Source: Acutalibacter sp. 1XD8-36 (lineage in GTDB: Bacteria > Bacillota > Clostridia > Oscillospirales > Acutalibacteraceae). From it: DNA of 64,000 nt. Made by a program: the position numbers and the translations under genes. The stretch covers positions 62,001 through 126,000 of the forward strand of contig NZ_QZDU01000005.1 of assembly GCF_009917525.1 (NCBI RefSeq), in the 5' to 3' direction. The notes beneath the pieces were generated by a model, which worked only from the letters and a program-made list of their open reading frames with translations, made no database searches and had not been told where the DNA came from. Shown piece after piece: positions 10,766 through 61,083 of the stretch. How positions within the stretch are numbered: the stretch's first letter is position 1; every line of letters begins with the position of its first letter.

Positions 10766-13168
10766 ATGGATATGGAACAAAGACAACTGCCGGTATATCT
10801 GCTGACTTATGACCACGGAGGCTATATCCTCTGGGGTGAACACTTCAAGGAGAGGTTGGACAGCGCCATAGAGTGGCTGGAGAAGTATCCCTCCTTTAAG
10901 CTCGGCCTTGACAACGAGGCCTTTGCCTACGACCAGTACGCCGAGACCCAGCCGGAGATGGTGGAGTTTCTAAGGGAGAAGCTTAGGGAGTTTGCCGGTA
11001 GGCTTGCCATCGGCTCATCCACCTACGGGCAGCCGCTGTCTGTTTTCGTCAACGAGGAGTCCAACGTGCGGCAGCTCACCTATGCCATCCGCGCAAATCT
11101 CCGGCACTTCTCCCAGACCCCCAGTGTCTACGCCATCAGCGAGCACGCCCTGCACAGCCAGATTCCCCAGCTTATCCGGCTGTGCGGCTATGAGGGGGCA
11201 GTGATGCGCACCCACTTTATGATGTACGGCTATAACCCCACCTATCCGGCTGGCTACGGTACCTGGGTGGGCGTGGACGGCACAAGAGTGCCCACAGTGC
11301 CTACATATGACGGCCAGGGGGCCGAGTTCGGGATAACCACCTATGACAACTGGGTGCTCACCCGCTGGCCCGACCAGACAGACAGGTCTCTGGAGGATTT
11401 TGTAGAAAAGTTCCCGGACATTTATCCCCTGCTGGCCTCCCGGTACGACGACATTGTGCTGCGCTGTGAGGGGCTGACTAAACATGTAGAGGAGCGCAGG
11501 GAGCAGTATAAATGGATACTGCTGGAGGAGATACCCGAGCTCTTCGGCGAGCCACAGATGGACTTCGCCCCCGGAGCTAACGAGTTTGTGGTGCGTATGC
11601 CCTGGGGCTACTGCGGAAACCATATATTCAACCGCTGCCGCCAGGGGGAGCTGGGCGTGCTTACAGCGGAGAGGCTGAATACCTGGACAGTGCTTGCAGG
11701 GGGAGAGTCCCGGCAGGAGTTGCTTGAGGAGAGCTGGAAGAAGCTCCTTGTCACCCAGCACCACGACATACAGATATGCGGCCTGCTGGATGACGAGAGG
11801 AAATTCCTCACCCGCTCCCTGGAGGCCTCAAATGCTGTTACAGAGGAGTCCCTTGAGTATCTTTCAAGACAGTTTGCCACCGGGGACGGCAAATATGTAA
11901 TGGTGTACAACCCCCTCTCCTATACTGTCTGTCATGAGGTGGAGTACCAGGTTTCCTACCCCAGAGGAAAGGGCGGGACAGGATTCTCGGTATGGTTTGG
12001 AGATAAGGAGGTCCAGTGTGAATACAACGCCCTGGACTATAAGGAGAACAGGATAAGCCGGGCACGGCTGCGGTTTGCCGCAGAGGTCCCGGGCCAGTCC
12101 ATACGCTGCTATAGGATATCGGCTGAGCCCGGTGAGCTCTCGGAAGAAACCCGGCTCTCAGCCCTGACCGGCACGGTACTGGAGGCTTCACCCTACACCT
12201 TAGAACTGGATGAATACGGTATCCGCTCTCTTAAAAATGAAGATACCTATTATTTTAAGAATGGACAGGGCGCGCTCTTTGCCGGAGTGGTAGACGGAAA
12301 GGCTGAGGTCTCAAAAGGGATATGGAGTGCTGTCAGGCGCGGAAGCAGCGTTGAGGCCGAGTATATGGGGACAATAGGCACCGTTGGCATACACTTTACT
12401 ATGTGCTTCTCCGGGGAGCTCATCAAGTGCCGGGTAAGGTTCAGCCACCATGGAGAGACGATAGGCTCCACAGAGCGTGCGGAGGAGTTTAAGGCCAATC
12501 TCAACGGCTTTGTCCATGAGGACAAGCTCCGCTTCCTAATACCCATGAAGATGAACGGCGCAAAGGGTGTTCGGGACCTGCCCTTCCTTATTGAGGAGAC
12601 AGAGGACCGCTATATCCAGGGAAACTACTGGACGGCCTGCGGGGACGGCAGGCTTGGCGTGGCCTGCTTTAATAAGGGGGCCATGTGTATGGTAAAAGAG
12701 GAGGATGGGATTTCCATTCCTCTGGAATATGCCAACACCTATGTGTGGGGCTCCCGGATGCTGTACGGCGAGACGGAGCATGAGTTTGCCATCCTGCCCT
12801 ATACCGGCAGCTGGGCTGAGCAGGATTTGCACCGGAAGGCGCTGGCCTATGAGTATCCCCTTGGTATACACCCGGTGGCCTCCGGCCAGAATGGGCCATG
12901 GAAGGATGAGGTTACCTTCCTAAAGGTAGACGGCAGGGAAAATATCCTGCTCAGTGCATTGTACCCGGAGGATGGGGCGGTTATTGCCAGGGTATATGAA
13001 GCCGGCGGTAAGGAGGGTACTGTATCCCTCTACTCAGACTTTGCGGAAATAGACGGAGAGGTTGACCTGCTGGGAGGAGATATTTGCACTTCCGATGGAA
13101 CGCTCACTGTGGGCGCACACAAAATACACAGCTTAAGGCTGAAAAAAGGAGCTGATAAAAATGGCTGA
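10766..13168 (+). CDS. GH38-like alpha-mannosidase (divergent)
   Basis: Start chosen at 10766, seven bases after GAAAGGAG. The ~800-residue protein has a GH38-type N-terminal barrel (LDNEAFAYDQYAETQPEMVE, then GRLAIGSSTYGQP), the late zinc-site motif TQHHDIQICG around residue 335, and a long C-terminal beta-rich region as in GH38 enzymes. There is no signal peptide, so it would act on imported oligosaccharides in the cytosol. Odd point: the usual N-terminal HxD zinc motif appears as LTYDHGGYILWG, so substrate or mechanism may differ from classical alpha-mannosidases. It heads a six-gene operon and overlaps the next gene by eight bases. Confidence 0.75.
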   Translation: MDMEQRQLPVYLLTYDHGGYILWGEHFKERLDSAIEWLEKYPSFKLGLDNEAFAYDQYAETQPEMVEFLREKLREFAGRLAIGSSTYGQPLSVFVNEESNVRQLTYAIRANLRHFSQTPSVYAISEHALHSQIPQLIRLCGYEGAVMRTHFMMYGYNPTYPAGYGTWVGVDGTRVPTVPTYDGQGAEFGITTYDNWVLTRWPDQTDRSLEDFVEKFPDIYPLLASRYDDIVLRCEGLTKHVEERREQYKWILLEEIPELFGEPQMDFAPGANEFVVRMPWGYCGNHIFNRCRQGELGVLTAERLNTWTVLAGGESRQELLEESWKKLLVTQHHDIQICGLLDDERKFLTRSLEASNAVTEESLEYLSRQFATGDGKYVMVYNPLSYTVCHEVEYQVSYPRGKGGTGFSVWFGDKEVQCEYNALDYKENRISRARLRFAAEVPGQSIRCYRISAEPGELSEETRLSALTGTVLEASPYTLELDEYGIRSLKNEDTYYFKNGQGALFAGVVDGKAEVSKGIWSAVRRGSSVEAEYMGTIGTVGIHFTMCFSGELIKCRVRFSHHGETIGSTERAEEFKANLNGFVHEDKLRFLIPMKMNGAKGVRDLPFLIEETEDRYIQGNYWTACGDGRLGVACFNKGAMCMVKEEDGISIPLEYANTYVWGSRMLYGETEHEFAILPYTGSWAEQDLHRKALAYEYPLGIHPVASGQNGPWKDEVTFLKVDGRENILLSALYPEDGAVIARVYEAGGKEGTVSLYSDFAEIDGEVDLLGGDICTSDGTLTVGAHKIHSLRLKKGADKNG

Positions 13169-13919
13169 CCCCTTTCGTATGGACGGCAAGACCGCGCTGA
13201 TTACCGGCGCTGGCCGGGGTATCGGAAAAGCGATTTCAAAGGCTTTTGCCGGGCAGGGTGCTGAGCTGCTTCTCACCTCACGCAATGAGGAGAAGCTGCG
13301 CCTTGCCGCACGGGAGTTGACCACAGAGGGAGCAAAGTGCCGGTACTTCCCGGCAGACCTTAGCTGCATGGAGGATATTGAGAAGCTGATAGGCTGGATA
13401 AACGGCATAGACAGGATAGACTGCTATGTGAACAACGCCGCCTTTACAGATTTTTCCTACCCCACCCAAACAGGCGCTGAGACAATAGCCTCCCTGTTCC
13501 ATACCAACTACCGGGCCTCGGTGCTGCTGGCCCAGGCCGCGGCAAAGCATATGACTGCAAAGGATATAAAGGGCTGTATGCTCTTTGTCACCTCCATAAA
13601 TGCCATATCTGCCCTACCCAGCCAGGCGTTCTATTCCAGCACAAAGGCCGCGCTTGAGTCCATCATGAAGTCCTTCGCGGCTGAGCTTGCGCCCTATGGA
13701 ATCAGAGTAAATTCCATTGCCCCCGGCGCGATAATGACCGACATGAACTCCCACTTCACTCCTGAGAAGGTTACGGAGCTCAGCGCCAAAATACCACTTG
13801 GGTGCATAGGCGAGCCGGAGGATATAGGAGATGCGGCGGTGTTTCTCTGCTCCGACGCAGCAAGGTACGTCACCGGCACAACCCTTGTGGCCGACGGCGG
13901 TTATTTACTTAGAAGATAG
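13161..13919 (+). CDS. SDR-family oxidoreductase
   Basis: A 252-residue short-chain dehydrogenase/reductase. It has the Rossmann nucleotide motif TGAGRGIG (~residues 14-21), NNAAF in the position of NNAG, the catalytic Ser in FVTSINA, the YxxxK pair in YSSTKAA, and the usual VADGGYL end. Its ATG overlaps the end of the mannosidase gene and follows AAAGGAG, so translation is probably coupled. Operon context points to oxidation or reduction of a sugar or sugar acid; the exact substrate cannot be read from sequence. A second SDR at the end of the operon is much closer to KduD. Confidence 0.88.
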   Translation: MADPFRMDGKTALITGAGRGIGKAISKAFAGQGAELLLTSRNEEKLRLAARELTTEGAKCRYFPADLSCMEDIEKLIGWINGIDRIDCYVNNAAFTDFSYPTQTGAETIASLFHTNYRASVLLAQAAAKHMTAKDIKGCMLFVTSINAISALPSQAFYSSTKAALESIMKSFAAELAPYGIRVNSIAPGAIMTDMNSHFTPEKVTELSAKIPLGCIGEPEDIGDAAVFLCSDAARYVTGTTLVADGGYLLRR

Positions 13920-13933
13920 GCGAGGTAGATGAT

Positions 13934-14920
13934 ATGAAATTAGCAATGGCGTATTTTTATCCCGGGCATGAGGAGAAAATACCGCTCTCCCAGCAGCTTG
14001 GAGTAGACAGGGCGGTTATAAATGTCTGCAGTCAAAAAACACCCCTGCCTGATGGCGGGGGATGGGATTTTGCTCCATTTAAGAGCAAGGTTGAGAGCTT
14101 TTTGCAGGCGGGTATCAAGCCTGAGGTGGTAGAGGGGCCTACACCCCTTGAGAGGACGAAGCTGGGACTCTCTGGCAGGGACGAAGAAATCAAAGTGTTC
14201 TGTAAGCTTTTAGAGGTCATGGACAGCCTGGACATCCGCACGGTATGCTATAACTGGATGCCTGTTATCGGATGGTTCCGCTCCCGGAAGAACATTCCCG
14301 CCCGTGGGGGCGCTACAGTTACCGGGTACTGCCATAAGGACGTGGAGGGGGAGCCTCTGACCGAGTTCGGGGAGGTGACTCAAAAGCAGCTTTGGGAAAA
14401 CCTGGAGTATTTCCTGAAAGCCGTTGTGCCCGAGGCCGAGAGGCACGGCATACGTTTGGCCGTGCACCCCGACGACCCGCCGGTGCCGGCTATACGCGGG
14501 ATATCCCGCATTCTGATTTCCCCGGAGGCCCTGAAAAAGGTCACGGAGCTGGTTCCAAGCGAGTATAACGGTATCACCTTCTGCCAGGGCTCCATTGGTG
14601 CTGAGGGGGCCGATGTGCCAAAGACGCTTTCTGAATTTGCACAGAAGAAAAAGATTTTCTTTGCCCACTTCCGGGATATCCGTGGCACAGCTGAGGACTT
14701 CCGGGAGACCTTTCACGAGGACGGGCAGACGGACATGTACAAATGTATGAAATTATACTATGGGTATGGGCTTGACTGCTGTATCCGCCCGGACCATGTG
14801 CCCACAATGCTTGGTGAGGAGTGCAGCCAGCCGGGGTACTCTGTACTGGGAAACCTGTTCGCCGTTGGATACATGAAGGGCCTGATGGAGGCCGCGCAAA
14901 AAGAGATTGGAGGATTTTAA
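13934..14920 (+). CDS. uxuA: Mannonate dehydratase (UxuA family)
   Basis: A 328-residue TIM-barrel enzyme matching UxuA, which dehydrates D-mannonate to 2-keto-3-deoxygluconate in glucuronate breakdown. Recognisable parts are YNWMPVIGWFRS, the metal-binding HPDDPPVP, NGITFCQGSIG and the metal/active-site segment FAHFRDIRG. It is somewhat shorter than the ~350-395 residues of many homologues, but all these blocks are present. It lies between an SDR and an RraA-like gene with very short spacing. The usual partners UxuB (fructuronate reductase) and UxuC (isomerase) are not in the window; one of the neighbouring dehydrogenases could replace UxuB. Confidence 0.88.
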   Translation: MKLAMAYFYPGHEEKIPLSQQLGVDRAVINVCSQKTPLPDGGGWDFAPFKSKVESFLQAGIKPEVVEGPTPLERTKLGLSGRDEEIKVFCKLLEVMDSLDIRTVCYNWMPVIGWFRSRKNIPARGGATVTGYCHKDVEGEPLTEFGEVTQKQLWENLEYFLKAVVPEAERHGIRLAVHPDDPPVPAIRGISRILISPEALKKVTELVPSEYNGITFCQGSIGAEGADVPKTLSEFAQKKKIFFAHFRDIRGTAEDFRETFHEDGQTDMYKCMKLYYGYGLDCCIRPDHVPTMLGEECSQPGYSVLGNLFAVGYMKGLMEAAQKEIGGF

Positions 14921-14921
14921 C

Positions 14922-15611
14922 ATGACTAAAGAGGTAATGGACTCAATTCGTGAAAAACTTATGCAGGCGTATTCTGCCGACCTGTATGATGTGCTTGATA
15001 AGATGGGCTATCCCAACCAGTGCCTGGATTTGAGCATTTCTCCCCTAAGCCCGGACTGGAAAGCGGCGGGGCCCGCCTTCACCATCTGGGGCATAAGGGA
15101 GCCCCGGTTTGACGGAGATTTACCGAGGCCGGATTTTGACAATCACGCGCTATTTGACAGGATTTACCCCGGCTGTATCGTGGCAATAAACGCGGAGAAG
15201 GACCAGATTGTCGGGCACTGGGGCGAGATGATGAGCTACGGCGCGAGGGCCGCCGGAGCTGTGGGAGCGGTTATCGACGGCGGCACCCGGGATAAGCCCG
15301 GGATACTGGACATTGAGAATTGGAGCTGCTTTGCCCGTTACACCTCGCCCATCGAGTCAAAAAGCCGGTGGCGTCCCCGGGAGGTGGAAATCCCCATTTA
15401 CATGACCGGCACCCTGACAAGCTCAGTGCTTGTACGCCCTGGAGACTGGCTTTTCGGAGACGTGGACGGCGTTATCGTCATCCCAATAGAGATACTTGAG
15501 GAGGCAGCGGAGAAGGTAAGCGAGCTTGCCCACCTTGAGAGGCTGTCAAGGGAGGCTTTCCGTGAGGGCAAGACCTTTAGGGAGGTCTATGACATGTACC
15601 GGCGCGCATAA
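14922..15611 (+). CDS. RraA-like / HMG aldolase family protein
   Basis: Start taken at 14922, with GGAGG at 14909-14913 inside the end of uxuA; a frame beginning at 14907 would start before this ribosome site. The 229-residue protein has the family core AVIDGGTRDKPGIL, containing the Arg-Asp pair that binds pyruvate-type substrates and metal, plus DWLFGDVDGVIVIP. Members include 4-hydroxy-4-methyl-2-oxoglutarate aldolase/oxaloacetate decarboxylases and the RNase E regulator RraA; here an aldolase or lyase acting on a keto-acid is more likely because of the uronate operon. The reaction is inferred, not proven. Confidence 0.8.
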   Translation: MTKEVMDSIREKLMQAYSADLYDVLDKMGYPNQCLDLSISPLSPDWKAAGPAFTIWGIREPRFDGDLPRPDFDNHALFDRIYPGCIVAINAEKDQIVGHWGEMMSYGARAAGAVGAVIDGGTRDKPGILDIENWSCFARYTSPIESKSRWRPREVEIPIYMTGTLTSSVLVRPGDWLFGDVDGVIVIPIEILEEAAEKVSELAHLERLSREAFREGKTFREVYDMYRRA

Positions 15612-15639
15612 GGGCGGCGTTTTGCGAAAGGAGAAGGCT

Positions 15640-16668
15640 ATGAAAGGTATACAGGTACAGGACAGAGGCAGGGCCGCCCTGGTGGAGCTGCCCTGCCCGG
15701 AGCATAGAGAGGGGTATGCCATTGTCAGAGTGATGGCGGCAGGTATCTGCGGCACGGACGTCTCTACATTCCGGGGCACAAACGTAAACGTGTCCTCCTA
15801 TCCTATTATCATAGGCCACGAGACCGCCGGGATAGTGGAAGAAGTTGGAGAGAACCCATACGGCATTAAGCCAGGGGACCACGTGGTGCTTGACCCATAT
15901 TTATACTGCGGCAGGTGCTACCCCTGCTCTCAGGGAAAGACCAACTGCTGCGAGACCCTTCATTGCCTGGGCGTCCACTGCGACGGCTCAATGTGCGAGT
16001 ATTTTTCCCATCCTGTAAATATGCTCCGCAAAATACCGGAGGATATGCCCTGGGAGCGGGCTCCCCTTGCAGAGCCCCTGGTAATTAGTATCCACGGACT
16101 GCATACCTGCGGGCTGAAAGCCGGAGAGCATATTGTTATTATTGGCGCAGGGGCCATTGGCCTTTTGGCGGCTATGGGGGCCCTGGCATACGGAGCCGTG
16201 CCCATCCTCACGGACGTGGTGGACGGCAGACTGGAAACCGCCAAATCGCTGGGGATTCCCTATACAGTGAATCCCCAGAAGGATGACGCGGTTGAGCGCA
16301 TAATGGAGCTCACCAATGGGCGGGGCGCGGAGTGCTGTATGGAGGCCTCGGGCTCTGACGCAGGGGTGCAAAGCGCCATCAGCTATGCGGCATATACAGG
16401 ACGTATAGCTCTTACAGGCTGGCCCAAGCACGAGATTTCCCTGCTCACAAACCTTATCACTAAAAAGGAGCTGCATATCAGGGGCTCCCGGAATGGGGCG
16501 GGGGAATTTGAGGAGGCCATACAGCTGATTTACTCCGGAAGAGTGCCGGCCGAAAGGATAATTTCCAAGGTCGTGCCGTATCCCCAGCTCCCCCATATGC
16601 TGGGTGAACTCAGCCAGCGCCCAGGAGATTATCTGAAGGTCGTGGGACTGTTTGACAGGGAGGAATGA
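15640..16668 (+). CDS. Zinc-dependent alcohol/polyol dehydrogenase (MDR family)
   Basis: Start chosen at 15640, behind GAAAGGAGAAGG; an earlier in-frame start at 15526 lies within the RraA-like gene. The 342-residue protein shows the catalytic-zinc motif AGICGTD and GHETAGIVEEVG, the structural zinc Cys cluster CGRCYPCSQGKTNC, and the NAD-binding GAGAIGLLAA. This matches threonine, sorbitol and galactitol dehydrogenase relatives. In this operon it probably oxidises or reduces a sugar acid; replacing UxuB is one possibility. Substrate is not determined. Confidence 0.88.
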   Translation: MKGIQVQDRGRAALVELPCPEHREGYAIVRVMAAGICGTDVSTFRGTNVNVSSYPIIIGHETAGIVEEVGENPYGIKPGDHVVLDPYLYCGRCYPCSQGKTNCCETLHCLGVHCDGSMCEYFSHPVNMLRKIPEDMPWERAPLAEPLVISIHGLHTCGLKAGEHIVIIGAGAIGLLAAMGALAYGAVPILTDVVDGRLETAKSLGIPYTVNPQKDDAVERIMELTNGRGAECCMEASGSDAGVQSAISYAAYTGRIALTGWPKHEISLLTNLITKKELHIRGSRNGAGEFEEAIQLIYSGRVPAERIISKVVPYPQLPHMLGELSQRPGDYLKVVGLFDREE

Positions 16669-16671
16669 ATA

Positions 16672-17445
16672 ATGACACACCAGCTATTTGATATTGATGG
16701 CAGAAAAGCGATAGTCACCGGCGCTACCAGGGGACTGGGCTGGGGCATGGCAGAGGGGTTGATGGAGTCCGGCGCAGAGGTCGTAATCTGGGGAAGCTCA
16801 GAGAAGGTACATGATGTAGCGGAGGAGTTCCGGGAAAGGGGCTTTACCTGTCATGGCGTGGCGGCAGACCTGAGCGACCGCAAGAGCCTGAACGCCGGAT
16901 TTGTAAAGTCCATGGAACTTTTGGGAGGCAAAATCGACATCTTAGTAAACTGTGCGGGTATCCAGCGCCGCCACCCCAGCGAGGAGTTCCCCATGTCCGA
17001 CTGGGACAAGGTGCTTGAGGTAAACCTGACAGCTCCCTTTGAATTGTGCCAGCTGGCAGGGCGGGAAATGCTGAAAGCCGGCTATGGGAAAATCATAAAT
17101 ATTGCCTCCATGCAGTCGTTTTTCGGGGGCTTCACCATCCCCGCCTACGCCTCGGCAAAGGGAGGTATCGCGCTGTTGACAAAGGCCCTGTGCAACGAGT
17201 GGGCAGGACGTGGAATAAACGTCAACGCAATCGCGCCGGGATATATGGCTACGGAGATGAATCGTGCCCTCTTGGACCCGGCAAACCCCCGGTACAAGGA
17301 AATTACTGACCGTATCCCCGCCCACCGCTGGGGGCGTGCACTGGGCGAGGACATGAAGGGTGCCTGTATCTTTCTTGCAAGCCATGCTTCCGATTATCTT
17401 AACGGAGCGGTTATTCCTGTAGACGGCGGCTATGCCAGTAAGTAG
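16672..17445 (+). CDS. kduD: KduD-like 2-dehydro-3-deoxy-D-gluconate 5-dehydrogenase (SDR)
   Basis: A 257-residue SDR beginning four bases after the previous stop. It resembles KduD closely along its length: nucleotide motif TGATRGLGWGMAEG, LVNCAGIQRR, catalytic block INIASMQSFFGG followed by YASAKGG (YxxxK), NEWAGRGINVNAIAPGYMAT, DRIPAHRWG, and C-terminal DYLNGAVIPVDGGY. KduD interconverts 2,5-diketo-3-deoxygluconate and 2-keto-3-deoxygluconate, the same product made by UxuA. That makes 2-keto-3-deoxygluconate the common node of this operon. It is the last gene; no clear terminator was seen in the ~95 bases before the convergent GH39 end. Confidence 0.8.
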   Translation: MTHQLFDIDGRKAIVTGATRGLGWGMAEGLMESGAEVVIWGSSEKVHDVAEEFRERGFTCHGVAADLSDRKSLNAGFVKSMELLGGKIDILVNCAGIQRRHPSEEFPMSDWDKVLEVNLTAPFELCQLAGREMLKAGYGKIINIASMQSFFGGFTIPAYASAKGGIALLTKALCNEWAGRGINVNAIAPGYMATEMNRALLDPANPRYKEITDRIPAHRWGRALGEDMKGACIFLASHASDYLNGAVIPVDGGYASK

Positions 17446-17539
17446 CGGACCTTAATAAACTCTCTGATGTCTTCGGCAGTAACATTAAAAGTCCGTATTC
17501 TTTGCGTTACATTTCTCCTGCCGCCGTTTTTTTAAGTAT

Positions 17540-18691
17540 TTAGAAAGAGTCTAACCTGGTAAGCTTTATTAAAAACACATCATTCTCATTTTCCATAATA
17601 TCCAGCAGCATACATTCGTCCCCCTCGCTGATATCCAGCAGGTTAACCTGTAGCGGGGAATCACCTGCAAACATATTAAGCAGCTCCGCCTGCCGCTTGC
17701 TCAGGCTGTTCGGACGGCCCATCCTCATGTACATAGTGTATGGGTCATTTTTCTGGCAGCCAGTGCAGTACACCTGCAAAAGGTACTGTCCAGGCTCCAC
17801 TCCTGCCGCCGTTACCTGCAGCCTGCCCGCCGGACGGGCCGGGTGCTCCAGGCAGTAATACTTTTTATTTTCCATATCCTGCCGCACTATGTCGTTCCAG
17901 GTCAATATCTGTATTCCCTGGCTGTCCTTACAGGCAGTGCCATCCTGTCCGCCTACTTCAAGCCGTTTATCTCCCAGCTGCGACAGATAGCGGTAGGCAA
18001 AGTAGGCGGGCTTCCGTATGCCCTGAAGGTTGATTAGCCCGAACCCGCCGTGAAAGGCACCGGTCGGCGGGCCGTCCTCTTCAAATACGTCGGACACCTC
18101 ACAGTATGAGATAGAGTTCACCATTCCCTCAACCGTATGCAGCCGCGACAGCAGATAGGACGCCGCGTGATAGGAATCCCGCAGAGGGTCCCAATAGTCG
18201 TATGCCAGCCCCCACTCCGTAAAATGTATCTCAAGCTCGGGCCGCGGCGAATTTTCTACCGCCGCCTTTACCGCCCTCACCGCCTGCTCCAGTCCACTCG
18301 GGTCATAGCATATGCCCAGGGGCCATGAAGGGCCTGGGTCCCAAACCGGTATACCCGGTATATTCCCGGGCTCTGGCTCCTCACGGAAGCTTTTGACCGA
18401 ATAGTTATGGGCTGAAATGAAATCCAGAGGCACCTTTCTTTCTGTGCAGTGCTGTATCAGCCGCTCTATCCAGCTGATATCCCCGGCTACCGCAGGGCCA
18501 CCAACGCGGTAGCCTTCCGACACCCTCTTGACCGCCCTGGCAGTCACCTCATAGAGCCTCAGGTAGTCCTCCATGGTCCCGGTGAAAAACGGCGGGTTAT
18601 CCGGCTCGTTCCAGACTTCAAAATACCATCCCGCCACCTCTTCCCTGCCATAGCGCCCGGTAAAATGGCTGACCGTCTCATATATTAGGTC
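17540..18691 (-). pseudogene. GH39 beta-xylosidase, C-terminal part (interrupted gene)
   Basis: C-terminal 383 residues of a GH39 enzyme. It contains the acid/base motif WYFEVWNEPD and the nucleophile region ELEIHFTEWG, followed by a beta-sandwich tail. It has no start of its own. Upstream of the first internal ATG the frame continues as DLIYETVSHF back to 18691, where it meets a mobile element. The N-terminal part is at 21111-21506. Joining 21111 directly to 18691 gives 132 plus 383 residues in one frame, about the normal size for GH39 beta-xylosidases. The enzyme would have cleaved beta-xylosides in the cytosol as part of locus B. Confidence 0.88.
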
Positions 18692-18698
18692 CCCGCTT

Positions 18699-18716
18699 TA
18701 CTTTACTTAAGGATAA
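18699..18716 (+). repeat. Left terminal inverted repeat of the transposon remnant
   Basis: TACTTTACTTAAGGATAA, matching the reverse complement of 21090-21107 at 16 of 18 positions. It starts seven bases inside the left GA junction. Confidence 0.75.
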
Positions 18717-18765
18717 TCCTTCGGGGAACTGCCGCAAATGACACATTCCCCATAGTTTCTATATT

Positions 18766-19341
18766 TCAATCAATCTTCCCGACAAAACGGTAATAAATCT
18801 CAATATCCCATACTTTCTTACCATTCTCGTCCTTCCTCCACTGATGGACTGCGATTTTCTCAATCAGTTCATTCAAAAGAGGAGCGGTAAGCTCGTCAAT
18901 GGCACTGTATTTCTGGATTAAGTCTATCCACTGTTTTGCATCGTCCGTTTCCGCTTTGGCATCCTCAAGCCTTGCGGATACGGTCTTCATTGTTTCATCA
19001 AGCTGTTGCTGCTCCGTGCGGTATTTGACGGACAGCATGGAATAGTTTTCTTCGTCAAGAAGCCCTTTTACCCTGTCCTCGTACATCTTCGCAAAGAGGT
19101 TGTTTAATTCCTGCCTGCGTTTCTGCGCCCTTTTCAGCTCTTTTTCGTCACGGGCATTCTCTGTCCTCCGCTGTTTCTCACTGCTCTGCAGCAGCCGTTC
19201 CAGAATGGCGTCCTCATTCTCCTTTACCGCCATCAGCCAGTACTGTAACCTTCCGAGAACAAAAGCATAGAGCAGGTTGTAAGTGATGAAATGCAGGGAA
19301 CACGCTTCTTTCCCATGTGCGGAATACTGCGTGCAGCGGTA
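18766..19341 (-). pseudogene. Large serine recombinase, C-terminal fragment (TnpX/TndX family)
   Basis: The frame runs from about 19341 to a stop at 18766. It begins inside the recombinase zinc-ribbon (RCTQYSAHGKEACSLHFI, with Cys, Cys and His ligands), then NLLYAFVLGRLQYW, and a long coiled coil (~KELKRAQKRRQELNNLFAKM) ending in IDELTAPLLNELIEKIAVHQ, the DUF4368-type tail of Tn4451/Tn5397 recombinases. The N-terminal resolvase domain with the catalytic Ser is absent: the sequence upstream is the end of a MATE gene in a different frame. An internal ATG at 19233 is not the true start. Confidence 0.85.
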
Positions 19342-20447
19342 ATATAAATAAGGTTTAACGCCATTGGAATAAATGACAAACTGAACAAAGGCAATGCTTT
19401 AGATGCAGTCTGCACAAGTTCTGTATCGCTGTTGAAAATACAAATAACAAGTTTATCAAAGAAAAACAACGCACTGTAAATTAAGGCAGACAAAACTAAG
19501 TTGATGATAATTCCACAACGGAAAAGCCAATTTATTTCTCCAGTATCCTTTTTACCATAGCTGTTCCCCCAAAGTGGCTGTAAGCCTTGTGCAACACCCG
19601 AAAGAATTGCATTCGCAAGGGAATAAATAAAACTCAATACACTGAAAGTTGATACGCCAATATCTCCAACAAGGCTTGCTAACATAATGTTGTAGCATAA
19701 TGCCGTTACGGGAGTTGTAAGTTGTGAAATTGCTTCAGGAACACCACGCTTACAAATTTTCTTAACAAGTGTTACCTCCAATTTTATTAAATTCAGTTTC
19801 AAGCGTCCTTTTTTGTTCCAAAAATGTGACAGCAGAACAAGTACAGAAAATACCTGTCCTAATCCCGATGCAACTGCTGCACCAATTATTCCCATTCCAA
19901 ACGGGAAAATAAAAAGCCAATCTAAAAATATGTTTGCAATCGCACCAACACACATCCCAATGAAAGAGAGAGTCGGAGAACCGTCATTCCTCACAAATAC
20001 AGATAGACAGGTACTCATGAGCATCGGAATAGAAAATGCTGAATAATAAAGCAGATAGTCCGCCGCCATTTTTCTCATTTCATCACTTAACTTGCTTGCT
20101 CCACTTATATCCACAATTTGTTGTGAGAACACCATACCAACAATCATTAATAAAACAGACATAGCAAGTGTTAATGTAATTGCTGTCATAAACGCTTGAT
20201 TTGCCCCCTTTTTATCCTCTCTCCCCATTCGTATTGCAACTACAGTTGCACCACCCATTGGAAACATAGCGGCAATGGCTACAACAAAAGTGATAAACGG
20301 CACTGCAATATTTACTGCACCTAAAGCCGCCGAACCAACACCTTGACCGACAAAAATTCCATCAACAACATTGTAAAGATAGGTTACAAATAAGCCTCCC
20401 ATAGCAGGGAAAATGTAACCGCATAAAGATTTTACTTTTGCATTCAT
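19335..20447 (-). pseudogene. MATE-family efflux transporter, C-terminally truncated
   Basis: From an ATG at 20445-20447 behind GGAGG, the protein follows a MATE multidrug/Na+ antiporter with about ten visible membrane helices (VVDGIFVGQGVG, MGGATVVAIRMGRED, WGNSYGKKDTGE). The match ends at about residue 368 (PMALNLIY). From there the reading frame runs out of frame through the recombinase fragment to a stop at 19233. Intact relatives are ~440-450 residues, so one or two C-terminal helices are lost. A deletion fused the exporter and recombinase genes. Whether the truncated protein still works is unclear. Confidence 0.82.
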
Positions 20448-20509
20448 AAAATACCTCCATACAGGAAATGGGACAAAGCACGTTTATGCTTCATCCCATC
20501 TAAATAAAC

Positions 20510-20548
20510 AAAAAGTGGGATAAAGCCCAATAGGTCTTATCCCACTTC
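20510..20548 (-). terminator. Leader hairpin followed by T-run upstream of the MATE gene (attenuator candidate)
   Basis: On the minus strand AAGTGGGATAA pairs perfectly with TTATCCCACTT over 11 bases and is followed by TTTTTGTTTATTT, the form of an intrinsic terminator. It lies between the promoter at 20590-20617 and the MATE start at 20447, in the transcribed leader. A second hairpin (ATGGGATGAAGCA / TGCTTTGTCCCAT, ~20461-20493) follows just before the ribosome site. This arrangement suggests transcription attenuation, as known for tet(M) of Tn916, although a simple terminator for tnpV read-through is possible. Confidence 0.65.
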
Positions 20549-20589
20549 AACAATCTTATTTGATTGCAAGTCCTCTGACAAGCACATCT

Positions 20590-20617
20590 ATTATAACATA
20601 TTTTTATCAAAAGTCAA
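20590..20617 (-). promoter_or_regulatory. Promoter for the MATE gene inside the transposon remnant
   Basis: On the minus strand: TTGACT (20612-20617), 16-base spacer, TATAAT (20590-20595). It is placed between the tnpV stop and the leader hairpin, about 135 bases upstream of the exporter start. Confidence 0.75.
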
Positions 20618-20635
20618 ATCCCAAATCTGCTGTTT

Positions 20636-21010
20636 TCACTTAGAAAAAATAAGCTCCTCGTTCACAATCTCCCTCGCACAAGCCCTTATGTTATTGAGTC
20701 GCCCTGTCCATTCTAAGGCGTTTTCTTCCTTTAAGCGTTCCGTTATGCCCTGTGCCTGTTTCATACCCTCTATGAGCCTTTCAAAGCGTTCCTGAGCCTG
20801 CTTGTCGATGTTGGCAAGGTAAGCGTTCAGCCCGCCGCTTGTGAGAAGATTGGTGTATGTAGCCCTGCGGTACTGCTTCAGATAGTCCAGATGCCGCTGT
20901 CCCCATATGCCTATCGGCTGTTGTTCCTCAGCGAGTAATTTCAAGTCTGGAGTAAGATACCCGTTTTCTTCATGGTATGTGCCGCCTAACTGTTCAAATA
21001 TTGATTTCAT
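20636..21010 (-). CDS. tnpV: TnpV-family transposon protein
   Basis: Start chosen at 21010 (MKSIFEQLGGTYHEENG), with AAAAGGAG upstream; a longer frame is less likely because this length (124 residues) equals that of the second copy at 58823-59200. Conserved features are FEQLGGTY at the start, QPIGIWGQRHLDYLKQYRRA, NAYLANIDKQAQERF, and a C-terminal REIVNEELIF. TnpV is carried by Tn4451/Tn4453 and many related elements; its role is not established. Small, basic and soluble. It marks this insertion as Tn4451-like. Confidence 0.85.
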   Translation of the reverse strand: MKSIFEQLGGTYHEENGYLTPDLKLLAEEQQPIGIWGQRHLDYLKQYRRATYTNLLTSGGLNAYLANIDKQAQERFERLIEGMKQAQGITERLKEENALEWTGRLNNIRACAREIVNEELIFSK

Positions 21011-21089
21011 ATGCAAAAACTCCTTTTCTGTGTGTTTTGGCTTCTGCGGGGTATCTGCAAGCAATGTATCAGCAGGCTGTATGTATATG

Positions 21090-21107
21090 TTATCTTTAAG
21101 TTAAGTA
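21090..21107 (-). repeat. Right terminal inverted repeat of the transposon remnant
   Basis: Reverse complement TACTTAACTTAAAGATAA, 16 of 18 identical to 18699-18716. It ends next to the GA junction at 21109-21110. Confidence 0.75.
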
Positions 21108-21110
21108 ATC

Positions 21111-21506
21111 CCCCCATTTTTCATAGGAGGTCGGCGGGGTCACGTTGGCCCTCTCCCAATACACCGTTGTGCTGCCGCTGGCAAGGGCCTCCGGCATAAA
21201 ATCAAACACCACAAACGGGCGGATATCGTTCTCAAGCAGGAAGTCATATACCTCGTCTAAATACTGCCAGCTGTACACTGCCCTGCCCTCAGCGTCCTCT
21301 CGGTACACCCCCATATCATCCTGAAAGATACCGTGAAAGCGCAGGTACTCAAATCCGCATTCCCTCACCGCCTGCACAAGATGCTTCTGGTGCCCGCTCC
21401 TCAGCAGCAGTCCTGCGCGCGCAGCGCTTATACAGCGCAGGGCAGTCCTGCTGTTTTCCCCTATAATTTTTTTCGCGTCTACTGTTATACGGCGAATCTT
21501 CTCCAT
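21111..21506 (-). pseudogene. GH39 beta-xylosidase, N-terminal part (interrupted gene)
   Basis: Start chosen at 21506 (MEKIRRITVDAKK); a frame beginning further upstream would run through the terminator hairpin of the previous gene. The 132 residues carry the GH39 N-terminal signatures YLRFHGIFQDDM and YLDEVYDFLLENDIRPFVV, and end in SYEKWG, after which the transposon begins; translation runs only three codons into it. The catalytic NEP and nucleophile regions are on the far side of the insertion (17540-18691), so this piece alone is inactive. Confidence 0.88.
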
Positions 21507-21547
21507 GTTACACACCACCACTTGTTTTTCGTTTTCTTTTAAGATGA

Positions 21548-21574
21548 AAACCGGCCGCCCTGTGGCGGCCGGTT
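21548..21574 (-). terminator. Rho-independent terminator after the locus B binding-protein gene
   Basis: AAACCGGCCGCC pairs perfectly with GGCGGCCGGTTT around a three- to four-base loop; on the minus strand it is followed by a short T stretch. It separates the importer operon from the xylosidase gene, so xylosidase expression may depend on read-through. Confidence 0.8.
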
Positions 21575-21582
21575 TCAAAACT

Positions 21583-23431
21583 CTACTTTAAGCCCAATGC
21601 CTCCCTGGTGTCGGAAATCACTCCAGACAGTTCCTCCTCCTGCTCCTTTCCAACCTTCAGCCAATATTCATATATCTCGTCTATATGGAACGCTTCAAGT
21701 CCTGCTATATACTCATCCTGCCGCCGCTCAAATTCCTCATCGCTTTCAGCCAGAATACAGCGGAACAGGTTTTTGAACTCATAGCTCTGTAAATTGGCGT
21801 CAAGAGTCTGCAATTCAGCGGGCAGGCTGCCCAGGTTATACACTGTCATATCAATATTGCCGCCTGGAGAAAGGGCGTCGTACATCTCAGGCATGGTGTC
21901 ATAGCCATAGTGCTCCAGCATGTCCCGGTGGACGCCGCGCATCTTTTTCTCCAGAGCCTGGGGCGAGGAACTCCACAGGTCCAGTGCCACGCCTGTTGAG
22001 GGCTCTATAGTGCCATACCCATAGCCCACGAATTTATCCAGGATATTGATACCCTCTGTTTTCTGCAGCTCCGGGTCGCTGCGGTCCAACGCCAGATATT
22101 CCTCGGTAGGTGTGGGTACTCCGTCTTCAATAGTCCAGTGCTTCCCCTCTTTTCCGTCATAGATTACCCTGGCGTTCTCATAGGATGATACCCAGTCCAG
22201 CAGCGCCACCGCCTTTTCCGGGTACTTGCACCCGGCAGAGACTCCGTAGTTGAACTGGCCCGCGATATAATAGCGGTACAGTGTAAACTTGTCGGTGTCG
22301 TCCTTCATCGGCGGCAGGCAGGTGAAGCCCTTCCCGGTCTCCCCTATGCTGTCAAAATAATCGTGCGCGCTCTGGATATCCCAGCCGGTATTTATATACA
22401 GATACCGCCCCGTGCCCAGCTTGCTGCAATACTGGTCCTGCTTTTGGGTAAAGGAGTCCGGGTCCAGAATGCCCATCTGGTTTGCCTTGTTAAACCATCT
22501 GACTGCCCGCCAGAAGGGTCCCTCCTTATCTGTCTGCGCGTTGCTCTCAATAATCTTGCCTGTTGAAATGTCGGAATACAGTATTCTGTCCCCGGGTGTT
22601 AGGCAGGTATACCCCTCGGCATAGGGCAGGTTGTATGTGATATGCCAGTCCCCCCAGCCCTGTGAATCGCCAAACCAGCTGCCCACAGCGTAGACCTTCT
22701 CCCCGTCTGCGTTTACACTTTCCAGGTCCTGCATCTGCTTTAGAACCTCAAGAAGGTCTGTGTCGTAATCGTTGATTTCCGGATAGCCAAGCTCCGCGTA
22801 CAGGTCCCAGCGTATAAACTGTCCGGCGATGGGCTGCAGGCCCGCGTCATAGGTGCCCCTCTGCATACCTATGGCGTATACTTTACCGTCAGGGCTCAGG
22901 GTGGTGCGCTTGAGCTCAAGGCTCACCTGAGCCAGCGGGTCCGCCGCCATGTTTGGAGCGTAGTCCGCAAGGTAATCATCCAGCGCCAGTATCTGCCCCC
23001 CCCTGGACCATCTGTCCGATGTACCGCAGGGTGTCCGTCTCAGGTATGAAGAATATGTCCGGCAGGTCGTTGCTGGCAATCATAGCCGGAAGCTGCTGCT
23101 GGGCATCCTGCTCGCTGGTGGGTATCAGGTCCACAATGACCCCCACCTCTTCCTCGATAATCCTCGCTATCTCGTTGTCCATCGGGCCGGTGCCGTATGG
23201 ATTGACCGAGCAGGACATCACCTTCAGCGTCACAGGCTCCTCTCCGTCTGCGGCCCCCTGGTCCTCGGGCCCACTCTCTTTTGCTGTGCCCTCAGTCCCG
23301 CTGCCGGAGCTTCCGCCTGCGGATGAACTGCTCTCCCCATTGGGAGCGCCCGCACAGGCTGCCGCTGTAAGCAGGATAAGCAGACATAGGGCAATAGCCG
23401 CCAGCTTCTTATACTGTCTTTGACCGTTCAT
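21583..23431 (-). pseudogene. Oligosaccharide-binding lipoprotein of locus B, frameshift in an 8-G run
   Basis: N-terminal part from 23431: signal peptide with lipobox LLTAAACAG, a Ser/Gly/Glu-rich tether, then VTLKVMSCSVNPYG and NDLPDIFFIPETDTL. The frame ends in nonsense after GQMVQGG. The rest of the binding domain (ILALDDYLADYAPN onward, to LEAFHIDEIYEYWLKVG at the end) is in another frame that reaches 21583. The change is at 22996-23003, eight C on the plus strand; seven would give MVQGGQILALDDY and one ~616-residue LplA/YtcQ-type protein. A real loss, a slippage switch or an assembly error are all possible. The two permeases of this importer are immediately upstream and intact. Confidence 0.87.
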
Positions 23432-54818: not shown

Positions 54819-55349
54819 TTACATATCTTTTAGCTTGTCCTTGAATTGCTCGACTAATGTGTCGCTTAATTCCTGCGAGGGAACTTTCGCCCAGATTTGT
54901 GTGGTATCGAACTTCGGATAGTGATAACGCCAGTTGTCGTATTCTTCCCTGCTGATTTCCTCGGAAGATAGCTTGTCCGCCTGCTCTTTCCAAGCACAGA
55001 GCATTTTTGATAGCTCGGCAGCGTCCTTACCTTTGTCCTTGTTGACTTTCAGACAAACTTCTCCGTCTGCTTCGCTGACGGTAAGACCGTAAATATCTTC
55101 AAGGGTAAATAAGGTGTGCATAAGACCGATGTAGCTGTCAATGTCGGGAACATCAAGAGCCTGCGGGGAAACATCAAGCACCTGTGCTAATGCAGCCGTT
55201 AAGTCTGCTTTTGGTTTACGAGAGCCAGTTTCGTACTGTGCCAGACGCACATCTGCACTCCGTTCGGGAAAGCCGACAGCCGTGCCAAGATATTTTTGCG
55301 TCATACCACGCAAAAGCCTGAAAAAATGTATTCTTTCGCCAATAGCCAT
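54819..55349 (-). CDS. XRE-family regulator of the integrated element
   Basis: A 176-residue protein. Residues 1-65 are a Cro/CI-type helix-turn-helix (FFRLLRGMTQKYLGTAVGF, VRLAQYETGSRKPKADLTAAL), followed by a C-terminal helical domain (~80-176). Such regulators with this tail are common in clostridial mobile elements next to the integrase. ATG follows AAGGAGTG. Promoter at 55383-55412 is well formed. It may control the element genes on both sides, but this is inferred. Confidence 0.85.
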   Translation of the reverse strand: MAIGERIHFFRLLRGMTQKYLGTAVGFPERSADVRLAQYETGSRKPKADLTAALAQVLDVSPQALDVPDIDSYIGLMHTLFTLEDIYGLTVSEADGEVCLKVNKDKGKDAAELSKMLCAWKEQADKLSSEEISREEYDNWRYHYPKFDTTQIWAKVPSQELSDTLVEQFKDKLKDM

Positions 55350-55657
55350 AGTATTTACACTCCTTGCTTATGTACTGCAACCAGTATAGCAGATATGTTT
55401 AGAAATTGTCAAGAGGAAACGAAACAAAAAAGTTTAATATTTTCTCTAAAACCTCTTGATACAAGCGTATTTGCTTAGTATAATAGAAAACACTAAGCTG
55501 ATATGCTTAATTAAAACTGAATGACCGTCCGAGTAGGATACTTCGCCACGACCTTTTGATTTGTTCAAGAGTGAGCGAGATAACGCCGCTGAAATGGGGG
55601 CAGGAACGATATTCGGGGAGAACGGCAGCTTAAAAATCTAATGAAAGGACTGATGAT
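55350..55657. promoter_or_regulatory. Divergent promoter region of the integrated element
   Basis: Leftward promoter for the XRE gene: TTGACA (complement of 55407-55412), 18-base spacer, TATACT (55383-55388). Rightward promoter: TTGATA 55456-55461, 17-base spacer, TATAAT 55479-55484, about 180 bases before the integrase chimera. The leader from 55490 to 55657 has no clear gene. No operator palindrome was identified. Confidence 0.7.
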
Positions 55658-56470
55658 ATGGAAAACAAATTTATTCGTGCCGATGATGTGGCACAGGAAC
55701 TAAGCGTATCAAAGCCCTATGCCTATAAGCTCATCAGAAAGCTGAATGAGGAACTGAAAGCACAGGGATTTATTACGATTGCGGGGCGTGTAAACCGCCA
55801 GTATTTTTATGAAAGGCTCTACGGAGCAGGAAATCCTGCCGCAAAGGTGGGAAATATGGGGAGTGAGGAACACAAGGAAATGCTGTTTTGGACAAAGGAA
55901 GAATATAAGAAATTTTCCTATGAAATGATGGACAAACCAGTTTCCTTTTACGCCTTTGAGATGCTCTACTGGTGCGGTATCCGAGAGGGCGAATTATTAG
56001 CCTTAACCGCCGCCGATTTCAACTTTGATAAAGAAACGGTCACGATTAACAAATCCTATCAGCGTTTACACGGCGAAGATGTGATTACCACACCGAAAAC
56101 AAAGAAAAGCAACCGCACGATTAAAATGCCGCATTTTCTCTGTGAGGAAATGCAGGAGTATCTCGGTATGCTCTATGGCTTGAAAAAGAAAGACCGTATC
56201 TTTACGGTAACGAAAAGTTATCTTCATCACGAGATGGACAGAGGGGCGGAAGCCGCAGGCGTGAAGCGCATACGGATTCACGATTTACGTCACAGCCATA
56301 TAAGTTTGCTGATTGATATGGGTTTTTCAGCGGTAGCGATTGCAGACCGTGTAGGACACGAAAGCATTGACATCACTTATCAGTACGCACACCTGTTTCC
56401 GTCTAAACAGACGGAAATGGCAAACAGATTGGACGATTTAGGGAAAGGGGATTTTGAAAATGTCGGCTAA
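55658..56470 (+). pseudogene. Chimera of a small HTH protein and the integrase catalytic domain
   Basis: One open frame of 270 residues. Residues 1-56 (RADDVAQELSVSKPYAYKL... FITIAGRVNRQYFYERLYG) match the small excisionase/MerR-like HTH protein normally encoded upstream of integrases in such elements. From residue ~58 (NPAAKVGNMG) it is the second half of a tyrosine recombinase: GIREGELLALTAADF (catalytic Arg), TTPKTKKSNRTIKMP (Lys), IHDLRHSHISLL (His-x-x-Arg), GHESIDITYQYAHLF (His and Tyr nucleophile). The integrase's arm-binding and core-binding N-terminal domains (~160 residues) are missing. An in-frame deletion best explains this; it probably cannot integrate or excise normally. Confidence 0.85.
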
Positions 56471-56795
56471 GAACAGAGATAACAAAAACCGTTGGAGGAA
56501 TATCACAGTAGGGCTTCGGGTATCGCCCGAAGAAAATGAACTCATTAACAAGGCAGTTGCTTTATCGGGATTGCCGAAACAGGAATACTGTTACCGCCGC
56601 TGTCTGAATCAGGATGTGGTGGTGCAGGGCAATCCGAGAGTATTTAAGGCACTGCACAAGGAACTTGCCGCCGTTCTTACGGAATTGCAAAGGATTGAAG
56701 CGGGAAACGACATAAACGATGAACTTCTGAATGTCATTGAACTGATTACTATTATCCTCGGCGGTCTGAAAGGAGAAGATGGGAATGGAGAATAA
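56460..56795 (+). CDS. MobC-like mobilization accessory protein
   Basis: Start at 56460, overlapping the integrase stop, with GGGAAAGGGG upstream. A 111-residue protein with a ribbon-helix-helix-like N-terminal part (TVGLRVSPEENELINKAVALSG, KQEYCYRRCLNQDVVV) and a C-terminal helix pair (NDELLNVIELITIILGGLKG). This matches plasmid mobilization relaxosome proteins of the MobC type found beside relaxases, which open oriT DNA. It is a basic, soluble protein. Its relaxase partner at 58203 is broken, so mobilization would need another relaxase. Confidence 0.65.
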   Translation: MSAKNRDNKNRWRNITVGLRVSPEENELINKAVALSGLPKQEYCYRRCLNQDVVVQGNPRVFKALHKELAAVLTELQRIEAGNDINDELLNVIELITIILGGLKGEDGNGE

Positions 56796-57927
56796 AAGAG
56801 AAATGACTGTTCCGAATGTATCTGTTGGCGCAGATACGGAACAGCCAATTCAAAAATGTACTGACCATAGTATATCCGACTGCGATGAAAATATCAAGAG
56901 TTTTGAAGAAATGCAAAGGGAAATGCTGCGGCAGTTATCCCCCTCGTATCTCAAGACAGTATCAATGGCAGCTTTGTATGACACGGTATTTGATATACAG
57001 ACGCCGCTGATTGATGGTTTGCTCCAAAGGGGAACTTACCTTTTCGTAGGCTCTCCGAAAGTGGGGAAAAGTTTTATGATGGCACAGCTCGCTTACCATA
57101 TCAGCACAGGAATACCATTGTGGGATTATAAGGTGCGAAAAGCAACGGTGCTTTACTTTGCTCTTGAAGATGATTACCCACGCTTGCAGAAACGATTGTT
57201 TCAGATGTTCGGCGCAGAAGAAACAGGCAATCTATATTTTGCAACGGAGTGTAAAACGGTCAATGGCGGTTTAGAAGAACAAATCAGAGGATTTATGCAG
57301 GAACATCCCGACACAGGTTTAATAATCATAGATACCTTAAAGCGTGTCCGTGAAGCTGGCGGGGCAGATTACAGTTACGCAAGCGACTATGACATTGTGG
57401 CAAGGCTCAAAGCGTTGGCGGACAGTTACAAAGTTACAATGCTTATCGTTCATCATACCCGAAAGCAGAAAGCAGAAGATATATTTGATATGATTTCGGG
57501 AACGAATGGACTGATGGGTGCGGCGGACGGCGCATTTGTCCTCAGCAAGGAAAAGAGAACTTCCAATAATGCTACGCTTGATGTGGCGGGCAGGGATCAG
57601 CAGGATGTGAAAATTCATCTTGTGAGAGATACCGAGTGTTTGGTGTGGAATTTTGAAAAATCGGAAACGGAGTTGTGGAAAGAACCGCCTGAGCCAATGC
57701 TTGAAAAAATTGCAGCTACTCTTTTTTCGGAAAGTAACAGATGGGAGGGAACAGCTTCAGAACTTTGTGAAAGGCTCGGCGTGGATATAAAACCGAATGT
57801 GCTTTCACTTAGGCTTAGTATCAACGCAAGCAGACTGTTTCGTGATTATGGTATCCGCTATCAGAACAGCCGCACGCACGATGGCAGAAAGGTTTCGCTT
57901 TGGAAAGAAGCCGATGGGGCGGCGTGA
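56785..57927 (+). CDS. RepA-like AAA ATPase (RecA-fold helicase)
   Basis: Start taken at 56785 (MENKREMTV), nine bases after AGGAG; an ATG two codons earlier is closer to the site. ~380 residues with a RecA-like fold: Walker A FVGSPKVGKSFMMAQLA (~residue 98), VLYFALEDDYPRLQKRLF, Walker B TGLIIIDTLKRVRE, and MLIVHHTRKQKAED with the sensor His. This is the RepA/Bro-type replicative helicase family carried by plasmids and mobilizable elements. C-terminal winged-helix-like part (TASELCERLGVDIKPN). It may replicate the element after excision. Confidence 0.83.
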   Translation: MENKREMTVPNVSVGADTEQPIQKCTDHSISDCDENIKSFEEMQREMLRQLSPSYLKTVSMAALYDTVFDIQTPLIDGLLQRGTYLFVGSPKVGKSFMMAQLAYHISTGIPLWDYKVRKATVLYFALEDDYPRLQKRLFQMFGAEETGNLYFATECKTVNGGLEEQIRGFMQEHPDTGLIIIDTLKRVREAGGADYSYASDYDIVARLKALADSYKVTMLIVHHTRKQKAEDIFDMISGTNGLMGAADGAFVLSKEKRTSNNATLDVAGRDQQDVKIHLVRDTECLVWNFEKSETELWKEPPEPMLEKIAATLFSESNRWEGTASELCERLGVDIKPNVLSLRLSINASRLFRDYGIRYQNSRTHDGRKVSLWKEADGAA

Positions 57928-58202
57928 CAAACGGTGTCAAAGGTGTCAATGTTTTGAGAGCAGTATCGCTGTCAAAAACATTGTCACTATCGTCACACAT
58001 TGACACGGTTTGAAGTTTAGACGGGGTTGTAAGGGTGTCCTTTTCAAAGGACAGCCCTTACCCCTCGGAGAGCGCAAAACCTGCGTGCAGGTTGCATTTT
58101 TGTTGGCGTAGCTGACATAAGTGCTTTTGCGTTACTTTCGCAGAAAGTAACAAAGGCTCACCGCAAGCGGCGAAAAGATAAGAATGGAAAGGAAGTGATT
58201 TT
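57928..58202. other. Inverted-repeat-rich region: candidate replication origin and oriT
   Basis: Gap between the RepA-like gene and the relaxase start. It holds: CAAACGGTGTCAA (57928-57940) against TTGACACGGTTTG (58000-58012), 12/13 complementary; an inner CAATGTTTT / AAAACATTG pair; a hairpin at 58031-58059 (AAGGGTGTCCTTT with AAAGGACAGCCCTT); ACCTGC-GT-GCAGGT at 58079-58092; and GTTACTTTC-GCA-GAAAGTAAC at 58131-58151. Position next to repA and mob fits an origin of replication followed by oriT. No nic site can be assigned from sequence alone. Confidence 0.5.
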
Positions 58203-58813: not shown

Positions 58814-58822
58814 GAACAAACA

Positions 58823-59200
58823 ATGGCAAAGACAATTTTTGAAGAAATGGGCGGCACTTATGTACGGCAAGGGGATTATTTTATCCCCTGCCTTACCTTA
58901 CCAGCCGAAAAAGAAAACAAGCCTATCGGTGTATGGGGACAGCGGCACAAACGCTATCTACGAGAGCATAAAAGAGCAACCTATACTACCCTGTTCATAA
59001 GCGGCAAGCTGAACAGCTATCTTGCCAACATTGACGAACAAGCAGAAGAATTGTTTTCTCGGTTGGTAAAACAGATAGCAGAGCGTGAGGGCGTGACGGA
59101 ACAGTTAAAAGCGGAAAACCAGATGAAATGGATCGGATTGATGAATAATATCCGAAGCAGGGTGATAGAGGTTGTGAATGCTGAGCTGATTTATGTCTAA
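58823..59200 (+). CDS. tnpV: TnpV-family transposon protein, second copy
   Basis: A 125-residue protein with the same layout as the tnpV at 20636-21010: FEEMGGTY at the start, PIGVWGQRHKRYLREHKRA, NSYLANIDEQAEELF, and VIEVVNAELIYV at the end. About half the residues agree between the copies, so they are relatives rather than recent duplicates. ATG eight to nine bases after AGGAAC. It lies after the broken relaxase and before the restriction-modification operon. Function not known. Confidence 0.85.
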   Translation: MAKTIFEEMGGTYVRQGDYFIPCLTLPAEKENKPIGVWGQRHKRYLREHKRATYTTLFISGKLNSYLANIDEQAEELFSRLVKQIAEREGVTEQLKAENQMKWIGLMNNIRSRVIEVVNAELIYV

Positions 59201-59207
59201 GCATCTA

Positions 59208-59249
59208 AAGAATTGCTCGACGCATCTATATGAGTGTCGGGCAATTCTT
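59208..59249. terminator. Hairpin between tnpV and the restriction-modification operon
   Basis: AAGAATTGC-T-CGAC pairs with GTCG-G-GCAATTCTT around a 14-base loop, just after the tnpV stop. Likely a terminator that insulates the next operon. Confidence 0.6.
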
Positions 59250-59258
59250 ACATGGGAC

Positions 59259-59287: not shown

Positions 59288-59338
59288 AAATAAAAATGAA
59301 CATGCTTGTTGCTATATAGCTCTTTCAGGAGGTGTGGT

Positions 59339-61073: not shown

Positions 61074-61083
61074 GAGGGGCATT

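Follow-up and report, generated by a model that had tools for sequence, protein, structure and literature searches.

The window considered here, a stretch of 64,000 nucleotides from Acutalibacter sp. 1XD8-36, carries a gene for a glycoside hydrolase family 39 (GH39) beta-xylosidase that is interrupted after codon 132 by an insert of 2,419 bp (18692-21110). The insert is very likely a decayed mobilizable transposon of the Tn4451/TnpX type, which entered the GH39 gene through a GG core, underwent an internal deletion and is now fixed in place. Judged by its gene set and by the domains of its recombinase, the parent is a Tn4451/TnpX-type mobilizable element. The copy in the window is a relic rather than a working member of that type, since it has no complete recombinase and no relaxase is found among its open reading frames (ORFs). 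The coordinates of all features are collected in Table 1.

The GH39 domain is continuous over the insertion point on the Pfam profile, on solved structures and in an alignment of homologues. In the alignment with the solved beta-xylosidase 1w91, residues 24-131 of the N-terminal part correspond to chain residues 20-130 and the C-terminal part begins at chain residue 132, so that the two halves adjoin with no residue missing or doubled. When the flanks are joined by script they give a protein of 515 residues whose sole stop codon is the terminal one. Its alignment with nine GH39 homologues from genomes of the same genus is free of gaps at the junction and has gaps elsewhere. Removing 18692-21110 leaves the same sequence as removing 18693-21111, because positions 18692 and 21111 are both C. 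The best solved-structure matches of the two parts are named beta-xylosidases, and the split gene is that of a GH39 beta-xylosidase, its activity being predicted.

Read along the minus strand, the insert contains tnpV, a MATE-family transporter gene and the C-terminal DUF4368 part (Pfam) of a TnpX-like recombinase, in that order. Both of its ends, called here the tnpV end and the tnpX end, match those of related full-length elements. The terminal inverted repeats agree at 16 of 18 positions, a value that none of 200 single-base shuffles of the 60-bp end segments reached (best 13). The parental TnpX (L130) is a protein of 568 residues in which the Pfam Resolvase, Recombinase, zinc ribbon and DUF4368 domains are all present; the resolvase domain, the recombinase domain and the start of the zinc ribbon are gone from the window copy. 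An earlier sequence-only reading of this DNA had described a transposon remnant with exact junctions inside a GH39 gene, a 515-residue frame rebuilt by its removal, an inverted repeat of 16 in 18 and a resident recombinase without its catalytic domain, and on all of these points it has been borne out. A search of Rfam gave no match within 17300-21700. By eye, a hairpin-like inverted repeat lies 5' of the MATE gene at about 20511-20550, which is perhaps an attenuator.

A scan of the genome collection with the tnpV end returned 47 stretches, 24 of them in records titled Lachnospiraceae; many of the 47 presumably come from the mouse gut, to go by their strain and catalogue names. An intact relative of 8,650 bp lies on one contig of a Lachnospiraceae genome (G325:C10:58487-67136) and encodes tnpV, a MATE transporter of 436 residues, three sigma-70 region-4-like proteins (one of them below Pfam's cut-off), an AAA protein, a Mob_Pre relaxase and tnpX. 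Over tnpV and the retained part of the MATE gene the window differs from it at four positions in 1,768 bp (99.77% identity). Compared with the parent, the window copy lacks about 6.2 kb, comprising the 3' end of the MATE gene, the mobilization genes and two thirds of tnpX. Parental MATE sequence ends with residue 368 and tnpX sequence sets in again at residue 377, the two breakpoints overlapping by 2 bp (TA). A further copy of the family (G435:C455:156-545; L176, L184) has a shortened tnpX arm, in which query positions 1-290 abut 485-584, and represents a second internal deletion. A second MATE gene (G000:C8:14902-16119; L027), 75% identical to window positions 19343-20599 of the insert, lies amongst ORFs that by eye resemble conjugation or mobilization genes.

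That the deletion derivative arrived already shrunken, as a non-autonomous unit moved by a helper TnpX, is an unlikely alternative. Both ends are present and the G435:C455 copy is likewise shortened within its tnpX arm, but the deletion junction itself, sought as a 27-base pattern with at most two mismatches, occurs in only one of 398 family genomes, which is the genome of the window. Scans of viral contigs for the element ends, for the targets and for the deletion junction returned no stretch in any of the three cases. Moreover, the two other carriers of this MATE gene among the 47 stretches (L108 and L097) have the same tnpV and MATE sequence up to the breakpoint, at 99.8% and 99.3% identity, with no tnpX sequence joined to it there; for L108, which belongs to the intact relative, the tnpX end is found on the same contig at 98% identity. 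A plasmid DNA search matched 17 records, all over the tnpV part, and none of these covers 80% of the query. It is even less credible that the structure is an assembly chimera. The genome is admittedly a draft of 65 contigs, yet the breakpoints share only 2 bp, judged too little for an assembler to join, and the flanks and ends obey the pattern of the family.

The natural junctions of the family also indicate where the recombinase crosses over. Distinct junctions were pooled from all loci and the same target sequence was counted once, which yields at least 24 tnpX-end junctions; the count was made without demanding GG or GA in the pattern, and a pattern that demands GG yields the same 24. In every one of them the conserved arm is followed at once by GG and then by a variable base (A in 10, G in 7, C in 4 and T in 3). 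Eight insertions share an identical 300-bp arm, after whose GG they continue as AGA, AGA, CGA, CGA, TGG, ATG, AGA and CGA. Since the bases vary behind identical arms, everything from the base after GG onward belongs to the target, and GG is all that the two sides share. In 43 of 45 tnpV-end junctions GGG stands before GATTACTTAAC and in the other two GGA does, and the base before GG is again variable (A21 G13 C7 T4).

The sequence-only reading had noted GA at the junctions and had taken it as the site of crossover, as for TnpX/TndX recombinases, and a GA core was likewise the starting assumption here. The observation stands, as GA occurs at both junctions in the window and in 20 of the 24 tnpX-end junctions; the crossover does not. 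GA is absent from the other four, L170 and L171 among them, and the identical arms with differing bases between GG and GA speak against it as the core. The frequency of GA at the junctions reflects the usual target, a Gly-Asp codon pair of tnpV. Unoccupied tnpV genes provide a further comparison, as a GA crossover would need G at the deciding base in nearly all of them. In the host genomes of the family, where 15 sites were readable from 30 loci (12 with the Asp codon and three without, two of the latter of the family's own kind), the deciding base of the 12 Asp-type genes is A in 10, C in one and T in one, and G in none. In a separate set from other genomes, from which two of the 19 listed sites (L027 and one in L061) were dropped before the test as not being tnpV by eye, G is found in two of 17, one of which is the window's own tnpV, against 43 of 45 at the tnpV-end junctions (Fisher p 1.8e-10). 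The unoccupied sites hence fit GG. The dyad symmetry of the joint points the same way, matching at 14 of 18 positions when centred on GG and at no more than seven of 18 at 21 other centres tried, with GA scoring five. In locus L093 (about positions 700-1820) two family elements stand head to tail, and the joint between them has the sequence predicted for a circular joint. From these comparisons the crossover of the family is taken to be a 2-bp GG core, and a crossover at GA as in Tn5397 is exceedingly improbable. GA, which we take to be the core of Tn4451, may not be a defining feature of the type; the predicted 2-bp core of this family is GG instead.

The commonest target of the family appears to be a gene of other mobile elements. 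Seventeen of the 24 tnpX-end junctions run on as Gly-Asp-Tyr-x-x-Pro, a TnpV motif, and for seven of these a match to the TnpV profile sets in at the junction, at position 4 or 5 of the profile. Of the seven junctions left over, one is the GH39 site, one is a tandem joint and five lie at other sites. Judged by eye, 35 of the 45 flanks at the tnpV end are tnpV-like. Genes for tnpV are numerous in the hosts, with 185 matches in nine genomes, fragments and the family's own copies included. Within the window, the free tnpV target near 58871 has the top score of 9,609 GG sites. At the GH39 site 11 of the 12 upstream bases match a known tnpV target, which only four of the 9,609 sites achieve, the GH39 site itself included. 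The GH39 gene is best regarded as a stray target whose left half resembles tnpV.

The Asp codon that follows the Gly codon is present in all 17 tnpV targets at tnpX-end junctions, unlike in the family's own tnpV, which reads ENGYL(I/T/V)P and lacks the codon in all 42 readable copies of 48. That check covered L071-L117 and the window, and six of the 48 gave no call, three of these having fewer than 330 bases. It is conceivable, though we hold it only tentatively and with rather less than even confidence, that a TnpX-type lineage of gut Clostridia lives mainly by GG-core insertion into the Gly-Asp codons of other elements' tnpV, and may spare its own sequence as it rides on rivals whose tnpV it disables, with the GH39 insertion as a stray. 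Common descent of one tnpV subfamily would also explain the lack of the Asp codon in 42 of 42 own copies. Among the papers listed in literature searches on TnpV, no title or abstract opening dealt with tnpV as an integration target, which is weak evidence of absence.

The proposed sequence of events may be set out as follows. The circular joint (...AAAGC-GG-GGATTAC...) would recombine with a GG in target DNA, most commonly in the Gly codon of the Gly-Asp-Tyr motif in the tnpV of another mobile element. In this case the element would have entered the GH39 gene at the GG within Trp-Gly-Asp, preceded by 12 bp that are similar to a known tnpV target. An illegitimate internal deletion, estimated at about 6.2 kb, would have taken the catalytic domains of the recombinase, the relaxase and the 3' end of the MATE gene, and both ends would have stayed. 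With its barrel split, the GH39 enzyme is predicted to be inactive, and the insertion would persist unless a close TnpX comes from outside.

Several observations weigh against parts of this account. No empty GH39 allele was found: among 394 genomes of the order only one, the genome of the window, matches at E<=1e-100, and in the genus 12 of 29 genomes, this one included, have GH39 matches, of which those other than the window's are distant homologues. The right half of the GH39 site is unlike tnpV, and amongst the 9,609 GG sites the GH39 site ranks 214th by a 40-nt weight matrix and 251st by the left 20 nt. In a nearest-target test, 18 sites score as well over 16 upstream bases, and 303 do so over 20. 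By these broader scores the GH39 site does not stand out, and its likeness to tnpV therefore comes down to the left 12 bp. The free tnpV of the window carries G at the deciding base and so does not separate GG from GA. Finally, insertion and deletion may have taken place in either order.

It had also been proposed that the insertion is a conditional off-switch for xyloside use, in which excision of the element in trans, under some condition, would restore the xylosidase. In its favour are the two ends, which look like those of the family, the GH39 halves, which are free of frame damage, and the presence of other DUF4368 recombinases in the genome. The genome has 11 DUF4368 matches, 10 of them over Pfam's cut-off, and one of the 11 is the remnant in the window. 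The search for an intact TnpX-like recombinase, which the sequence-only reading had called for, thus found related proteins, but the closest intact one compared is just 50.5-50.7% identical to the parental TnpX. This search was by DUF4368 only, and some of the distant proteins were compared over part of their length. Moreover, a DNA search of the genome turned up the element only once, and its ends had no further match. No evidence for the switch was found; it is unsupported rather than disproved, and we regard it as very unlikely. Excision in trans is unlikely at present, though both ends remain. A frozen insertion of a decayed element is the preferred reading.

Table 1. Features of the interrupted GH39 gene, the inserted element and the free tnpV target in the window
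Feature	Position	Strand	Basis or remark
GH39 beta-xylosidase, N-terminal part	21111..21506	-	132 codons; Pfam Glyco_hydro_39 profile 3-128; 1w91 chain 20-130
GH39 beta-xylosidase, C-terminal part, open to stop	17540..18691	-	Glyco_hydro_39 from profile 129; 1w91 chain from 132
Inserted element, internally deleted TnpX-type mobilizable element, 2,419 bp	18692..21110	-	both ends match related full-length elements
tnpV of insert	20636..21064	-	PF14198, E 6.6e-42; 20640-21110 100% identical to parent
MATE-family transporter gene, truncated	19233..20447	-	parental residues 1-368 of 436 (2 substitutions), then 36 foreign residues
tnpX remnant	18766..19344	-	parental TnpX residues 377-568, 98.4% identity; PF14287 (DUF4368)
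Internal deletion junction, 2-bp (TA) overlap of MATE gene and tnpX	19343..19344		parent L130 positions 4255 and 10486 joined
Inverted repeat, tnpX end	18698..18715	+	16/18 against other end
Inverted repeat, tnpV end	21091..21108	-	16/18; end sequence found in 47 genome-collection stretches
GG crossover core (predicted), tnpX end	18693..18694	-	CC on + strand; junction comparison, symmetry
GG crossover core (predicted), tnpV end	21112..21113	-	CC on + strand; junction comparison
Uninterrupted tnpV of another mobile region	58823..59200	+	PF14198; free GG target about 58871-58872

The genes beside the GH39 gene (13161-17445) encode UxuA-like and RraA-like proteins, a zinc dehydrogenase and two short-chain dehydrogenases, a neighbourhood that suggests hexuronate use. 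A second mobile region occupies 54819-63834 and includes a tyrosine integrase, a NikA-like protein, an AAA_25 protein and tnpV, together with a probable restriction-modification pair (a weak REase_II match and an N6_N4 methylase) and a candidate defence pair, PDC-M14A/PDC-M14B. The ORF at 59514-61073, beside tnpV, was considered as a possible intact TnpX and rejected, as it has no Pfam match and a weak match to a type II restriction enzyme.

Amongst known systems, Tn5397 bears its own conjugation genes, a difference from the element described here. With plasmid genes annotated as tndX, the recombinase gene of Tn5397, the parental TnpX shares 37.6% identity. Tn5397 also has a strong preference for one coding motif, there a Fic domain, and differs in its central GA as against GG here (PMC4430133). 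TnpX has been reported to use a 2-bp target (PMC3158075), and Tn4451, treated together with gene-disrupting mobilizable elements, is described as being of low specificity (PMC5704250). The family has in common with Tn4451/Tn4453 a large serine recombinase like TnpX, the tnpV gene, mobilization functions in the parent and, as predicted from its junctions, a 2-bp crossover (PMC3158075, PMC5704250), and differs from them in a MATE cargo instead of cat, in its predicted GG core and in the frequent use of tnpV as target. The Tn4451-like elements Tn6104-Tn6106 of Clostridioides difficile likewise have tnpV and sit inside a larger element, and for Tn6115 of the same species a GG direct repeat is reported (PMC3158075); the gene content of these elements is different, and the excerpted account in PMC3158075 makes no mention of tnpV targeting.

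A similar way of life is described for IME_Rho_tet, a mobilizable element of gut Clostridia with a serine recombinase and terminal inverted repeats; its preference is for a single family of small ORFs, MAFF2, to which 116 of 256 matched sites belong (PMC12904643). It differs in that target gene and in its tetracycline-resistance cargo (PMC12904643). The multi-targeting large serine recombinases with DUF4368 also resemble the present family, as they use several target gene clusters and form a clade with TndX-like proteins, but the example core given for them is TT (PMC10083194) rather than GG.

The feature in the window is itself a decayed member of an already known type of element. What had been an idea of a gene switch is replaced by a traceable history that runs through an intact relative, an insertion and an internal deletion. 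Full-size relatives usually land in tnpV, and the GH39 copy appears to be a stray that is now frozen, not a switch. Beyond the window, the comparison yields a GG core, as predicted from the natural junctions of this group of recombinases, and frequent nesting in tnpV. Near-identical elements across many species offer ready candidate attachment-site pairs for a multi-target recombinase, and they provide a natural case of elements that nest in one gene of other elements.

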